Assembly (NCBI GenBank): GCA_028866655.1
Contig: JAGWHQ010000003.1
Location: 1-64,000 of the forward strand
Direction: 5' to 3'
From: Nitrososphaerota archaeon
GTDB taxonomy: Archaea; Thermoproteota; Nitrososphaeria; Nitrososphaerales; Nitrosopumilaceae
DNA: 64,000 bases
This document shows positions 7,308 to 12,883 of the stretch, piece by piece. A program made the position numbers and the translations under genes. Every line of letters begins with the position of its first letter. Position 1 is the first letter of the stretch. The notes under the pieces were generated by a model, which searched no databases, had not been told where the DNA came from, and was given only the letters and a program-made list of their open reading frames with translations.

Positions 7308-7469
7308 ATGTCTGTTGATGTTGTTTGTGGAAAATGTGGAGCTAAAATTGCAAATATGCGTATGTTAAAATCAATAAAAGATGTGATGCGACCATATAAC
7401 AGTAAATGTCCGTCCTGTGGACAAACACTATCTCCATCAGAATTCAGCGTGGATGTGCAGAAGAACTGA
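7308..7469 (+). CDS. small CxxC-CxxC zinc-ribbon protein
   Basis: 53 residues. CGKCG near the start and CPSCG at 34-38 form one four-Cys zinc site. A stretch between them is basic (KSIKDVMRPY). Function unknown; the size and pattern are those of small archaeal zinc ribbons. It lies between the thiolase pair and the NrdD-like regulator. Confidence 0.7.
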   Translation: MSVDVVCGKCGAKIANMRMLKSIKDVMRPYNSKCPSCGQTLSPSEFSVDVQKN

Positions 7470-7537
7470 TCTAAAAAGCTTTACTTGAGATCAATTTAGT
7501 CAAAAATCTTAATTACCGATACACTCTAGACAATTCC

Positions 7538-9634
7538 ATGGAATTAAGTGAAGACTTTGGCGATCCTAAACGTGGTGGAATATTACAATCAGCATCAAAA
7601 CGTGTAAGAATGATCTTCTCTGTTATGGCAAGTCCAAACAGAATTGATATTTTACGTATACTAAACTCAAAAGGACCGCTTACTTATTCTGAATTAAAAT
7701 CTCTTGCAGGCTTTAAATCCAAAAAGGAAAGTGGCAAGTTTGCATATCATTTGAGAAAATTATTACGACAGTCTCTTGTAGCCTTAAACAAGTCTGAAAG
7801 ACGATATACTATCACTAACTTGGGAAAACTTGTTCTAAGTCTTGCAAGACAGATCGAAGAACGATCTATCATTGAAAGTGGAAAGATGTATGTTAGAACC
7901 TCACATGAATCAATTGAAGAATTCAATTCTCATAAGATTATTCAATCATTGGTTAGAGAGGGTAGTCTTCCACTTGAACTTGCTCAAAAAATAACTGAGG
8001 AAGTGGAAAACAGAATATACAAATTCCAAACATCGTATCTTACATCTTCACTCATACGTGAAATGGTCAACTCTGTACTCTTAGAACAGGGCCATGAGGA
8101 TTATAGGCACAAACTAGCAAGATTTGGTTTGCCTGGTTATGATATTCATGAGATGCTAACTAACGTAGATGGTATTCATAATGGAGTCGAAGGTTTACTA
8201 TTTAAAACAGGACAAAATGTATTTGGTGAATATCTTGTTTTAAATACTCTGCCTAAAGATGTAGCTGATTCTCATCTCTCAGGAGATCTTCATATTACAA
8301 ATGCTGGATTGTGGTCATTACTTCCAGATACAATATTTGTGAACATTAAGGAACTTATTGAAGAGGGAGTTGACTTGAGAGGAAAATTCTTAGGAGTAAC
8401 AAGAACGTCATCACCAAGTTCATTAGACGATCTTTTCACTTCGTTATCTCTACTTACTTGTCTTCTCATAAAAGAAGCATCACAAGAAGTAGTAATGGAT
8501 GGATTAGTTGCACTGTTACAAAAATATTCAAAGAATTTGCCTGAAGTTGAAGAAAAACTTGCAAGCTGTTTTGCAAAAATATCTACCGGACCAAAATATG
8601 GAAAGAATGGAACACTTGCTTCATTTAGAATTTCCATTGGAACAGAACCAAAGGTGATTGGAACTATTCTCCAAGCCTACAAAAAATATGTCAAATCAAC
8701 ACCACTTCCTTCTATAGGATTAGTTATTGATTATGAAAAGGCCAAGATAAGTGACTATTCAGAAACTTTGTCAGACATAATTGCACTAGGAGGACATGTT
8801 ATGTTTGCTAAAGGATTAGTATCTAACAAAGGATTAGCACGAGAAGATACAAAGAATGTTGGAACAACTTCTATCAATCTAGAGTCTTTATCAATTAATA
8901 TGCCAAGACTTGCCTTTGAATCTAACAAAGATGAAACCTATTTCAGAGCACGTCTTGCATTGTTGATGAAACCCGCACTAGCAGCCATGTCTCTGAGAAA
9001 GAAGGAGATATCTGATCTAACAAGACGCGGCCTTAATCCAATCCTTGCAAACAATACGCAATATATGCAAAAGGGATCAGTGACTTTAGTTGTTAATTTG
9101 ATCGGGCTCAAGGAAGCAGTTTATGGTATTTTAGGATATGAAAATAACAAGGCTGGACACGAAATATTGGCCAAAGTGATAAACACTGCTATGGAAGTAG
9201 CCACAAAGAAAGGAAAAGAGATGGGTGATAATGTTATTGTAACCATGACTGAAAGTGACGCAGCAAGCCGCTTCTCATCACTTGATGGTGAAAAATATGG
9301 TAAAATGTCAATTAATCATCATGTTATGGGAGAATCATACTCGGAAGGGATTGTTCTTGATGCCTCTGAAATGGCAGAGATGAATCCAAAGAATGAAAAG
9401 ATCGTAGAATCAAATTACTTTTCAAAAATACTTAATGGCGGCCTCTTAGTCCAATTAAAGATCCCAGATACAATGGATTCTTCAGGAATAAAGAAGGCAA
9501 TAGAAAAGGCAGGTGATCTATTGGGATCTTTTAGACCTATCAAAAAAGTGCCTATATGTAGCAATTGTGGACTCAAAGAGGAAAAGATCGCTGAAAAGTG
9601 TTCAGTGTGCAAGTCTCCTTACATATTAGCATAA
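7538..9634 (+). CDS. winged-helix DNA-binding protein fused to ATP-cone and degenerate NrdD (anaerobic RNR) body
   Basis: 698 residues. An ArsR-like winged helix (about 20-110; MASPNRIDILRIL and a KFAYHLRKLL helix) is followed by an ATP-cone (about 115-205), the dNTP/ATP sensor of ribonucleotide reductases. The rest resembles NrdD, with VADSHLSGDLHI around 246-250 (NrdD has HLSGDIHIHD) and GLKEAVYGILGY. A C-terminal four-Cys zinc site (C674, C677, C688, C691) matches the NrdD zinc site. The protein ends only seven residues after C691 in SPYILA, without the RV-GY glycyl-radical motif, and the TTSINL region (442-448) lacks a Cys where active NrdD would be expected to have one. It is therefore probably a nucleotide-sensing regulator, not an enzyme. 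It lies directly upstream of the cobalamin-dependent RNR. Confidence 0.85.
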   Translation: MELSEDFGDPKRGGILQSASKRVRMIFSVMASPNRIDILRILNSKGPLTYSELKSLAGFKSKKESGKFAYHLRKLLRQSLVALNKSERRYTITNLGKLVLSLARQIEERSIIESGKMYVRTSHESIEEFNSHKIIQSLVREGSLPLELAQKITEEVENRIYKFQTSYLTSSLIREMVNSVLLEQGHEDYRHKLARFGLPGYDIHEMLTNVDGIHNGVEGLLFKTGQNVFGEYLVLNTLPKDVADSHLSGDLHITNAGLWSLLPDTIFVNIKELIEEGVDLRGKFLGVTRTSSPSSLDDLFTSLSLLTCLLIKEASQEVVMDGLVALLQKYSKNLPEVEEKLASCFAKISTGPKYGKNGTLASFRISIGTEPKVIGTILQAYKKYVKSTPLPSIGLVIDYEKAKISDYSETLSDIIALGGHVMFAKGLVSNKGLAREDTKNVGTTSINLESLSINMPRLAFESNKDETYFRARLALLMKPALAAMSLRKKEISDLTRRGLNPILANNTQYMQKGSVTLVVNLIGLKEAVYGILGYENNKAGHEILAKVINTAMEVATKKGKEMGDNVIVTMTESDAASRFSSLDGEKYGKMSINHHVMGESYSEGIVLDASEMAEMNPKNEKIVESNYFSKILNGGLLVQLKIPDTMDSSGIKKAIEKAGDLLGSFRPIKKVPICSNCGLKEEKIAEKCSVCKSPYILA

Positions 9635-9734: not shown

Positions 9735-9835
9735 ATGGAAATTATAACGGTGTCAATAACACTGATCCAAATCTTAGCTTTAGAAAATTATTTTTTGCCG
9801 TAGTGTTTAATTAACTACCATTTGTTAGGGTTGAG
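9735..9835 (+). repeat. promoter-like repeat R1 (101 bp)
   Basis: First copy of a block repeated at 10116-10216, with no gaps; I count 91 of 101 bases identical. Weaker similarity extends left to about 9705. It holds a TATA-like TTTAATTA (9806-9813) framed by inverted arms GTAGT (9800-9804) and ACTAC (9814-9818). Archaeal spacing puts the transcription start near 9836, exactly where the repeat ends. Confidence 0.85.
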
Positions 9836-9836
9836 T

Positions 9837-9924
9837 GAGATATATCTCTCCAGAGGAGTAAAATTCTAATGTTACTCACAAGGGGCGTGAGAACAAGAAG
9901 ACTTTAGCCAGTCACTCCTCTGGA
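9837..9924 (+). ncRNA. structured leader or small RNA with 11-bp stem and possible 12-codon ORF
   Basis: A perfect 12-bp palindrome (GAGATATATCTC, 9837-9848) is followed by an 11-bp perfect stem, TCCAGAGGAGT (9849-9859) with ACTCCTCTGGA (9914-9924). Inside is a second stem, CTCAC/GTGAG, with a GGGGC-containing loop. A 12-codon frame (ATG 9869-9871 to TAG 9905-9907, MLLTRGVRTRRL) starts 9 nt after the purine-rich GAGGAG, which the stem would hide. It is not a tRNA, 5S or RNase P RNA that I recognise. Transcription from R1 would make this the start of a roughly 390-nt leader for the RNR gene. Confidence 0.5.
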
Positions 9925-10115
9925 ATTATTAATTTGATCTAAATTCTAGTACTAATTAAGTTTAATCCAGTCTAGGCGGTTTTGATCTAAGATCGATCAC
10001 AAGATGGAGAAAGAAATTTCATCCTTTTAAATATGCTAGATAGTCACTTCGGAATTTACGTTCAAATCTCAATGAATTCATCAAGATTTATTTTTGGCTA
10101 AAGAGATCCATTGTC
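9925..10115. other. gene-free remainder of the 590-bp intergenic region
   Basis: No open frame with a plausible start, no tRNA and no known riboswitch seen between the hairpin and R2. The stretch contains GATC-rich sequence (around 9980-10000) without clear symmetry. Confidence 0.6.
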
Positions 10116-10216
10116 ATGAAAATCGTAACGGTGTCAACAAAATTGATCCAAATTTCAGCTTTAGAAAATTATTTTTTGCCGCAGTGTTTAATTAACTGCC
10201 ATTTGTTAGGGTTGAG
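10116..10216 (+). repeat. promoter-like repeat R2 (101 bp), immediately upstream of RNR
   Basis: Second copy, 381 bp after R1. From 10157 to 10216 it differs from R1 only at C10182 (T in R1) and G10198 (A in R1). These two positions pair in the inverted arms GCAGT (10181-10185) and ACTGC (10195-10199). TATA-like TTTAATTA lies at 10187-10194, and the RNR start is 10 bp after the repeat. This is the likely proximal promoter of the RNR gene. Confidence 0.85.
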
Positions 10217-10225
10217 GGGAGTAAT

Positions 10226-12883
10226 TTGACAGATTTTTCACAAATAGAAAATTCGATCATTCAAGTAAAGAAACGCGATGGTCGAGTATCAGATTTCCAG
10301 AGAGATAAAATTTCAAACGCAATATACAAAGCACTTGTTGCTTGCGGAAGATCAGATCATGGACTAGCAGATAAACTAGCAAATCATGTTCTTGCAAAAC
10401 TTGTGACTAGAGGATTTTCTGGTTCAGAAGCACCAAGTGTAGAGGATGTTCAAGATATGGTGGAATCTACTCTAATTGAGGAGGGACTTGGAGAGATCGC
10501 AAAGGCGTACATCCTATACCGACACGAACGACGAAGAGTTAGAGAAGAAAAGATGAAAGTTCTTGAATCAAAGTCTCTTGATGGAGTTGCAAAGAGATTT
10601 GATCTTAATTGTTTACGAGTATTAGCATCTAGATATCTACTCAGAAATAACAAGGGTCAGATAACTGAAAGTCCAGGTGAGATGTTTGAAAGAGTCGCTA
10701 TTTTGGTAGGTATTGCTGATATCATCAGAGATCCATCAGTATTTCAAATTGAAGGTGGAAATACTCAAAACACTGAAGAAGCAGCACGATATCTGGACAA
10801 ACTTGATGATTTTAATTATAAATTCAAGATAGGAAAATACTATCTTAACAAATATCATTTTAGATCCCTGATAAATCACTATATCGACTTGGCAAAACAT
10901 GGTCAGATGAAAGTCAGCTTTAGAGAATTATTGACCATGTTGGCTGCAAACAAGTTTGAACAATATACTGAACGAATCAAAGAATCTGCTGATTTGATGA
11001 TTGCACAAGACTTTCTGCCTAATTCACCAACCATGATGAACGCTGGTGCAAGATTGGGTCAACTTTCTGCATGTTTTGTTCTTGCAATGGAAGATGACAT
11101 GGAAAAGATAATGAAATCATCATCTGATGCCGCATTGATATTCAAATCTGGAGGTGGAGTTGGTATCAACTATTCAGATTTGAGACAAGAAGGAGATATG
11201 GTAGCATCAACATCTGGAGTAGCCTCAGGTCCTGTCTCATTCATGAATATCATTAACACTGTTACCGAAGTAGTCAAACAAGGTGGTAAACGAAGAGGCG
11301 CAAACATGGGAATCATAGAAGCATGGCATCCAGATATTGAGAAGTTCATCACTGCAAAAACAAAACCAGGTGTTCTTGAAAACTTCAATGTAAGTGTAGG
11401 AGTTTGGGAAGACTTTTGGGAAGCACTTGTTAATTCATCTGATGGAAAATTCACTCTTCGAAGTCCACGTGAGAGAGATCCCATACGAGAAATAAATGCA
11501 CATCATTTGATTGACTTGATTGCACTCTCTGCATGGAAGAGTGGTGAACCTGGTCTGATCTTTTTTGATATCATAAACAAATACAATGTTTTTGCAAAAG
11601 CAAGAGGTCAACCAATACGAGCAACAAATCCATGTGGAGAACAAAGCCTTTATCCATACGAATCATGCAATCTCGGTTCAATCAATCTCTCTAACTATGT
11701 CAAAAGAAAAGCTGATGGTCAATACGAATTTGACTGGCAGAGATATGAAGAAACCATAAGAAAGACAACAAGATTCCTTGATAACGTCATCGATGTTAAC
11801 ACATACCCAATTCCTGAAATTGACAAGGCATCAAAAGATTCTCGAAGAATCGGACTTGGAGTAATGGGCGTTGCAGATCTCTTATTCAAATTACGAATTC
11901 CATACAACTCACAAGAAGGATATGAATTCCAAGAAAAACTTGCTGAAGCATTAACATACTATTCCATGGAAGAAAGTATTGCACTAGCAAAGACACGAGG
12001 ACCATTCCCACTATGCTCAAAAACTGAATATCCAGAGGGTAAAATTCCTGTTGCTGGGTACTATGAAAAGCCAAAGAGTGCTCGTACCTATGATTGGGAT
12101 GCTTTGATTGCCAAAATTCAGAAACATGGCATTAGAAATGTTCTAACAACAACTGTTGCTCCTACTGGTACATTGTCAATGATATCTGACTGTTCAAACG
12201 GAATGGAACCAATGTTTGCCCTAGTCTTTGAAAAGAGAGTAACAGTGGGCAGATTCTTCTATACCAACAAAATCTTTGAAGCAGTACTAAAAGAACATGG
12301 GCTGTACAATGATCAAATTCTAGAAAAGATTGCAAATAATTATGGCTCTGTAAAGGGAATAGCTGAAATTCCTGAATGGATGCAGAAAATATTTGTCACC
12401 GCAATGGATATTCACTGGGCAGATCATCTCATGGCCCAAGGAGTATGGCAGCGTTGGATAGGTAACGCTATTGCAAAGACAATCAATATGCCAAATGATG
12501 TATCATCTGATGATGTAAAAGCTGCATATCTACTAGCACATGATCTTGGTCTAAAAGGAATCACAGTATTTCGAGATGGTTCAAGACATGAACAAGTGTT
12601 ACACATGACCGGAAATAATGTTCAAAAGAATTTCCAAGTAACTCCAAGTACTTATGTCACAGACTATATTTCAAAGAATGTCACAAATGCATATCTAAAA
12701 ACTGAGATAGAAAGAGCGCTTCAAATAAAAATTCCAGAGAATGTACAATCTACTCCAGCACCAGCACTTACTCAAGAACAAATGGAAGAAAGACTATGTC
12801 CTACATGTAAAAACAACTTGGTATTTGCAGAAGGATGTAGTGTATGTATAGAATGCGGATATAGCGGCTGTACCTCTGGCTAG
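10226..12883 (+). CDS. nrdJ: ribonucleotide reductase, adenosylcobalamin-dependent (class II)
   Basis: 885 residues with a TTG start preceded by a purine-rich GAGGGGAG. The N-terminal ATP-cone (about 10-105) is the allosteric activity site. Catalytic residues are clear: redox pair C283 (LSACFVL) and C481 (ESCNLGSIN), thiyl-radical C470 and E472 in NPCGE. The 11-residue C470-C481 spacing matches the Lactobacillus class II enzyme. TVAPTGTLS and CSNGMEP follow. The C-terminus has a zinc-ribbon-like cluster (CPTC ... CSVC-ECGYSGC), which probably re-reduces the active site. No small subunit gene accompanies it, consistent with B12-radical chemistry, and the cob operon of this window can supply the cofactor. 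It makes deoxynucleotides. Confidence 0.96.
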   Translation: MTDFSQIENSIIQVKKRDGRVSDFQRDKISNAIYKALVACGRSDHGLADKLANHVLAKLVTRGFSGSEAPSVEDVQDMVESTLIEEGLGEIAKAYILYRHERRRVREEKMKVLESKSLDGVAKRFDLNCLRVLASRYLLRNNKGQITESPGEMFERVAILVGIADIIRDPSVFQIEGGNTQNTEEAARYLDKLDDFNYKFKIGKYYLNKYHFRSLINHYIDLAKHGQMKVSFRELLTMLAANKFEQYTERIKESADLMIAQDFLPNSPTMMNAGARLGQLSACFVLAMEDDMEKIMKSSSDAALIFKSGGGVGINYSDLRQEGDMVASTSGVASGPVSFMNIINTVTEVVKQGGKRRGANMGIIEAWHPDIEKFITAKTKPGVLENFNVSVGVWEDFWEALVNSSDGKFTLRSPRERDPIREINAHHLIDLIALSAWKSGEPGLIFFDIINKYNVFAKARGQPIRATNPCGEQSLYPYESCNLGSINLSNYVKRKADGQYEFDWQRYEETIRKTTRFLDNVIDVNTYPIPEIDKASKDSRRIGLGVMGVADLLFKLRIPYNSQEGYEFQEKLAEALTYYSMEESIALAKTRGPFPLCSKTEYPEGKIPVAGYYEKPKSARTYDWDALIAKIQKHGIRNVLTTTVAPTGTLSMISDCSNGMEPMFALVFEKRVTVGRFFYTNKIFEAVLKEHGLYNDQILEKIANNYGSVKGIAEIPEWMQKIFVTAMDIHWADHLMAQGVWQRWIGNAIAKTINMPNDVSSDDVKAAYLLAHDLGLKGITVFRDGSRHEQVLHMTGNNVQKNFQVTPSTYVTDYISKNVTNAYLKTEIERALQIKIPENVQSTPAPALTQEQMEERLCPTCKNNLVFAEGCSVCIECGYSGCTSG

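Follow-up and report, generated by a model that had tools for sequence, protein, structure and literature searches.

A catalytically dead anaerobic ribonucleotide reductase as the probable regulator of the adjoining reductase gene in Nitrososphaerales

Based on sequence comparison, we propose that a pseudo-NrdD protein of Nitrososphaerota is very probably the switch for the gene of the adjoining, working ribonucleotide reductase (RNR), and probably a repressor with predicted abilities to bind DNA and to sense ATP and dATP. The window, i.e. the whole 64,000-nucleotide stretch of DNA analyzed, contains its gene at 7538..9634 (+) as an open reading frame without internal stop encoding 698 amino acids; proteins of this genome are 97-98% identical to Ca. 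Nitrosotalea (Nitrosopumilaceae) proteins in named records. The reading that we consider likely is an RNR-specific, autoregulated transcription factor built from a dead RNR, and a functional parallel of NrdR. The protein itself would count neither as a member of NrdR, whose DNA-binding domain differs, nor as an NrdD enzyme. Few archaea have NrdR according to the literature (PMC9110341), so that their control of DNA-precursor synthesis is largely open. This work names a candidate RNR regulator for much of one archaeal phylum, the globally abundant ammonia oxidisers included, together with a predicted operator that makes the candidate testable at once. It would clearly exemplify how a metabolic enzyme can turn into the transcription factor of its own pathway. 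No description of the pseudo-NrdD regulator was found in the open-access literature, to which the search was confined (subscription papers lay outside it).

The combination of a winged helix, an ATP-cone, an NrdD body and the NrdD zinc site, read from the bare sequence in the initial annotation, is borne out by Pfam, AlphaFold and Foldseek. The winged-helix DNA-binding head comprises residues 26-105 (7613..7852, +), with Pfam matches to DUF7347 (residues 26-100, 2.4e-10) and HTH_20 (residues 30-82) and a pLDDT of 89.1 for the AF2 model of this fragment. When submitted alone to Foldseek, the N-terminal 115 residues mainly match ArsR/SmtB and MarR regulators (3cuo, CadC, NolR, CzrA). ArsR/SmtB-type winged-helix regulators are a dimeric, palindrome-binding class. 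Within the head, GFKSKKESGKFAYHLRKL is near-invariant across the order Nitrososphaerales. The ATP-cone follows at residues 117-205 (7886..8152, +; PF03477, 9.2e-10, Pfam match 117-189) and precedes an NrdD barrel without catalytic residues (206-670; 8153..9547, +), delineated by PF13597, Foldseek and a residue tally. A four-Cys zinc site of the NrdD type (Cys674/677/688/691; 9557..9610, +) completes the protein. The full-length AlphaFold model is confident (mean pLDDT 85.4), and its top Foldseek PDB matches are class III RNRs only, over the full length (9d3x, E 9.5e-21; T4 1h79/1h7a, TMt 0.66). The regulator has the class III-type RNR barrel fold and the four-Cys zinc site, and scores 76.8 bits on TIGR02487, for which the cut-off is 326.

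Catalysis has been lost, as far as sequence can show. The protein ends seven residues past the last zinc Cys (Cys691), without a glycyl-radical segment, as had been pointed out before; similarly, the NRDD Pfam match (441-693, 8.7e-24) stops at profile position 529/562, ahead of the radical Gly. Alignment with true archaeal NrdDs of the same phylum, in which the radical Gly and Cys were also looked for at shifted positions and not found, allowed a tally over 190 family members. The radical-Gly motif R[VIT]xGY (RVxGY-like) is present in 0/190 members versus 35/35 true NrdDs, and the beta1 active-site Cys (PFC) in 0/190 versus 5/5 NrdDs, its position being taken by Thr265 (8330..8332, +) in the window protein. 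The radical Cys had been reported missing at TTSINL (442-448). It is indeed missing, but its site is the finger loop SNKGLAR (429-435; 8822..8842, +), beyond which TTSINL (443-448) lies; the Cys pair of true NrdD (QCCRL/MCCRL) reads Gly432-Leu433 here, with Leu433 where the radical Cys belongs. Four of the 190 members retain the finger-loop Cys, and ten have the NAN flap motif, an upper bound as it was counted anywhere in the sequence. The family shows stages of decay. L079 matches NRDD through the final position (562/562) and retains the finger-loop Cys and the C-terminal segment, yet has lost the Gly, whereas in the window protein all three are gone. In more distant members a decayed C-terminal tail remains, such as the end of L100, GRLTTRYETISSWDYGKRIEYMERFRH, versus SRITGYYQQLRGWNAGKVQEFKDRHRY in the true NrdD L099, and the zinc segment has gone in some members.

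Neither NrdG, whose presence in related genomes would have spoken for a live enzyme, nor NrdR (TIGR00244) has a match above the cut-off in 31 relatives or in the window genome. Weaker matches to both were discounted as below the cut-off; those to NrdG are partial, fall in ORFs of mostly about 240-270 amino acids and are likely other radical-SAM proteins. The regulator is the sole NRDD match in the window genome, which has no other NrdD. That the protein is a working but unusual anaerobic RNR with another radical site is hardly credible: crystals of the T. maritima class III RNR without a suitably placed Cys (PMC4390871) speak in its favor, but the protein has neither the radical Gly segment nor either active-site Cys, NrdG is missing too, the barrel is the fastest-evolving part and a working nrdJ adjoins.

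The regulator gene is present in 58/61 relatives, and pseudo-NrdD proteins occur in 218/300 genomes of the phylum, the more distant matches spanning mainly the HTH, the cone and the first part of the barrel. The initial annotation, which considered thaumarchaea and a class II RNR, was too narrow in scope, as the family is not specific to them and may have a true nrdD as neighbor outside the order. Phylogenetically, the members form one clade separate from NrdD (SH-aLRT 99), which holds without the HTH columns; on this tree the family is of single origin. Between congeners, dN is 0.03-0.09 against a dS of about 0.8-3, i.e. strong purifying selection. Because of this selection and the presence in 58 of the 61 relatives, the gene is neither a chance reading frame nor an assembly artefact. 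The HTH (dN 0-0.03) and the ATP-cone (0.01-0.03) evolve slowest and the barrel faster (0.04-0.12). Across 56 diverse members the mean consensus is highest for the ATP-cone (0.68), followed by the HTH (0.57) and, at about 0.33, most of the barrel; within the order, the strongest constraint falls on the HTH (0.84). Five genomes lack the regulator. Four of them also lack a detected PF02867 RNR, and therefore the locus is probably missing from those assemblies. The fifth, G042 (L316, L317), alone among the genomes seen, has its nrdJ elsewhere, with neither regulator nor operator nearby.

The conservation of the cone bears on what the protein would sense. Lys and Arg of the KRDG motif, equivalent to Lys7/Arg8 of P. 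copri NrdD, are replaced by Thr-Ser in the window protein and in most family members. Together with the loss of the zinc segment in some members, by which the body would still be degenerating, this replacement could mean that the cone of an RNR-specific DNA-binding regulator no longer senses ATP/dATP, and that the regulator is constitutive or answers to another signal (redox via the zinc site, or a partner protein). We regard this as rather unlikely, since no part of the protein is better conserved across the phylum than the ATP-cone, which is under strong purifying selection, and the true archaeal NrdD L099 likewise reads VRTS. Moreover, Tyr189, Arg190 and Arg195 are near-invariant and close to the region of Arg87/Arg91 in P. 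copri NrdD, which contacts phosphate (PMC11226230).

The link with RNR is visible in the gene order. Downstream of the regulator in the window lies nrdJ (10226..12883, +; TIGR02504, 6.4e-221). Its product is a class II RNR that carries an ATP-cone of its own; as the single PF02867 match, it is the one catalytic RNR detected in the genome. In Nitrososphaerales, an RNR gene follows directly downstream on the same strand in all 22 loci with flanking sequence. The same holds for 78/80 loci of Nitrosopumilaceae, without a counterexample among those having room, and a recheck by tblastn found nrdJ absent from none. The expectation that the same fusion would recur next to the RNR gene in other genomes thus proved right throughout the order. 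The downstream RNRs belong to four NrdJ lineages with roughly 30-50% mutual identity, of which C and D have no KRDG-type ATP-cone start. Judging by these loci, the RNR next to the regulator has been swapped among four divergent lineages while the regulator stayed. The downstream class II reading frames of L037, L039 and L041 are unusually long (1046-1149 amino acids), and that of L041 is of the PRK07562 kind. Beyond the order, a true nrdD lies directly downstream on the same strand, at a distance of 219-569 nt, in L079, L082, L084, L090, L099 and L110 (in L110 nrdD is apparently frame-shifted near its end), and likewise downstream in G147, G183, G323 and G165. Constant adjacency would equally suit an allosteric or assembly subunit, in which the winged helix serves dimerisation or protein contact. 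Such a protein partner of RNR is nevertheless improbable: a dedicated interface would hardly survive four divergent NrdJ lineages plus a class III enzyme outside the order, and a conserved palindrome occurs in both promoters.

This palindrome reads GTYAA-N6-TTRAC (GTCAA-N6-TTGAC in the order's other families) and recurs in the promoter of the regulator gene itself as well as in that of the RNR gene. The discovery set comprised 40 regions, namely the own promoter and the gap between regulator and RNR gene for each of 20 loci. At spacer 6, 15 of these regions matched at least 9/10 arm bases, compared with 0-3 at other spacers (2-11) and 0.45 in dinucleotide shuffles of the 40 regions (maximum 3 of 60 runs). 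As the starting points for the dyad were the nrdJ promoter of the window's genus and loci found with TCAA-N4-6-TTGA, it was submitted to a held-out test. In 12 held-out genera, 14/23 regions passed, with at most 3 at other spacers. In a further held-out set, made up of 23 relatives of G045, 33/43 regions passed, with conserved arms and a drifting spacer; here the own-promoter region was mis-cut in L271 and L272, and certain other spacers or the everted control score as well because the genomes are closely related. The P values are about 1e-14 for discovery, about 1e-16 for the held-out genera and about 1e-20 for genome-wide enrichment. The latter is based on 79 exact sites in about 25.6 Mb from 16 genomes (3.1 per Mb), nine of which fall in RNR-locus promoters of eight genomes where 0.025 are expected. 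G045 has two exact sites in its entire genome, one of them just before the regulator gene. In an nrdD-linked genus outside the order, two dyads in tandem precede the regulator and are conserved in four genomes. Several of the copies in own promoters (GTTAAATACAATTGAC) coincide in part with a TATA-like sequence, a position that would fit autorepression. The control of the adjacent class II RNR that the initial annotation had suggested is supported by the palindrome in both promoters, which the held-out genera confirm, but is not tied to class II.

The palindrome might belong to another transcription factor, with pseudo-NrdD merely carried along at the RNR locus. In line with this, no GTYAA-type dyad was found beside most members outside the order. 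We nonetheless judge it very improbable: the dyad is also in the regulator's own promoter, the single genome with nrdJ but without regulator (G042) has no operator near nrdJ, and the HTH is the domain under the strongest constraint within the order. In addition, the remaining genome-wide operator matches, compared in five genomes for a wider regulon, share no common or DNA-related target.

The window itself carries a variant arrangement. The full 16-bp dyad is absent from both promoters and replaced by a form with a 5-bp spacer before nrdJ (10130-10147) and a half-site with a TATA-like sequence before the regulator. The predicted operator in the nrdJ promoter, GGTGTCAACAAAATTGATCC (10130..10149, +), is a GTCAA-N5-TTGAT dyad conserved through Nitrosotalea; at least 8/10 arm bases are matched in the nrdJ promoter of 30/30 Nitrosotalea and 23/27 other Nitrosopumilaceae loci. 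The exact form, GGTGTCAA-N5-TTGAT, has a single occurrence in the 1.42-Mb genome, at the nrdJ promoter. Downstream lies the TATA-like TTTAATTAA of nrdJ (10187..10195, +), conserved in the Nitrosotalea footprint. The stretch 9735-10216, formerly treated as one promoter, contains the nrdJ promoter twice, at 9735-9835 and 10116-10216, in a tandem duplication of about 90% identity. The upstream duplicate (9735..9835, +), identified by alignment, contains a degenerate dyad at 9749-9768 (a one-mismatch pattern match at 9749) and was not seen among the other Nitrosotalea intergenic regions aligned. In the regulator's own promoter, the box GTCAAAAATCTTAATTAC (7499..7516, +) overlaps the TATA-like CTTAATTA. 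Its conservation extends over 30 Nitrosotalea genomes and throughout Nitrosopumilaceae; it contains the GTCA half-site only, without the full dyad. Just upstream, at 7308-7469 (+), a previously unlisted 53-amino-acid ORF with two CxxC pairs (zinc-ribbon-like) is conserved through Nitrosopumilaceae. A GTCCA-N5-TGGAC dyad upstream of the regulator was rejected as operator, since it falls inside this small coding ORF.

In the likely reading of a dedicated, autoregulated RNR regulator, an ancient NrdD would have acquired an N-terminal winged helix, lost its catalytic residues and been retained as an ATP-cone-bearing DNA-binding protein, probably dimeric as the NrdD and ArsR-type folds suggest. It would bind the conserved GTYAA-N6-TTRAC sites of its own and the downstream RNR promoter, and in Nitrosopumilaceae the 5-bp-spacer variant. 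The ATP-cone would read ATP versus dATP and set the affinity for DNA, such that high dATP most likely represses both RNR and the regulator's own gene, and the protein would play in these archaea the role of NrdR in bacteria. As a tentative extension, the whole RNR body may act as sensor, the cone for ATP/dATP and the dimer-interface specificity site of NrdD for other dNTPs, with both setting the DNA affinity. If so, one transcription factor would read the dNTP balance directly and would have outlived several enzyme replacements.

Several known systems share elements with the regulator. With NrdD (PF13597, TIGR02487) it has in common the full-length fold, including ATP-cone and zinc site, and its ancestry, but it lacks the radical Gly, the finger-loop Cys, the beta1 Cys and NrdG and has an extra N-terminal winged helix. 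Similar to NrdR, the bacterial RNR repressor, it is RNR-linked, carries an ATP-cone, has palindromic sites in RNR promoters (here with predicted binding) and is probably autoregulated. NrdR is, however, a small, unrelated protein of a Zn-ribbon and an ATP-cone (TIGR00244), whereas the regulator has a winged helix instead of the Zn-ribbon, a whole RNR body and an operator sequence different from NrdR boxes. With ArsR/SmtB-type regulators (HTH_20, HTH_5, DUF7347) it shares the fold of its N-terminal 115 residues, yet its putative sensor is a pseudo-RNR and not a metal site. To our knowledge, no DNA-binding domain is known in UL45 of HCMV. This inactive RNR large subunit of a betaherpesvirus (PMC5469499) is likewise a dead RNR homologue retained for signalling, but is a viral class I R1 that targets host NF-kappaB signalling.

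Most loci outside the order have no adjacent RNR, which together with the missing dyad counts against the regulatory reading. Other neighbors were observed there; their product names are our reading of the sequences. In L079 and L082, a small CxxC glutaredoxin/NrdH-like ORF lies between regulator and nrdD on the same strand. Seventeen regulator loci (including L076, L080, L086, L089, L091, L102 and L109) have an aspartate carbamoyltransferase-like (pyrB) gene close by on the opposite strand, mostly no more than about 35 nt away. A further ten loci adjoin a nascent-polypeptide-associated-complex-like gene, and two precede a dCTP-deaminase-like gene.
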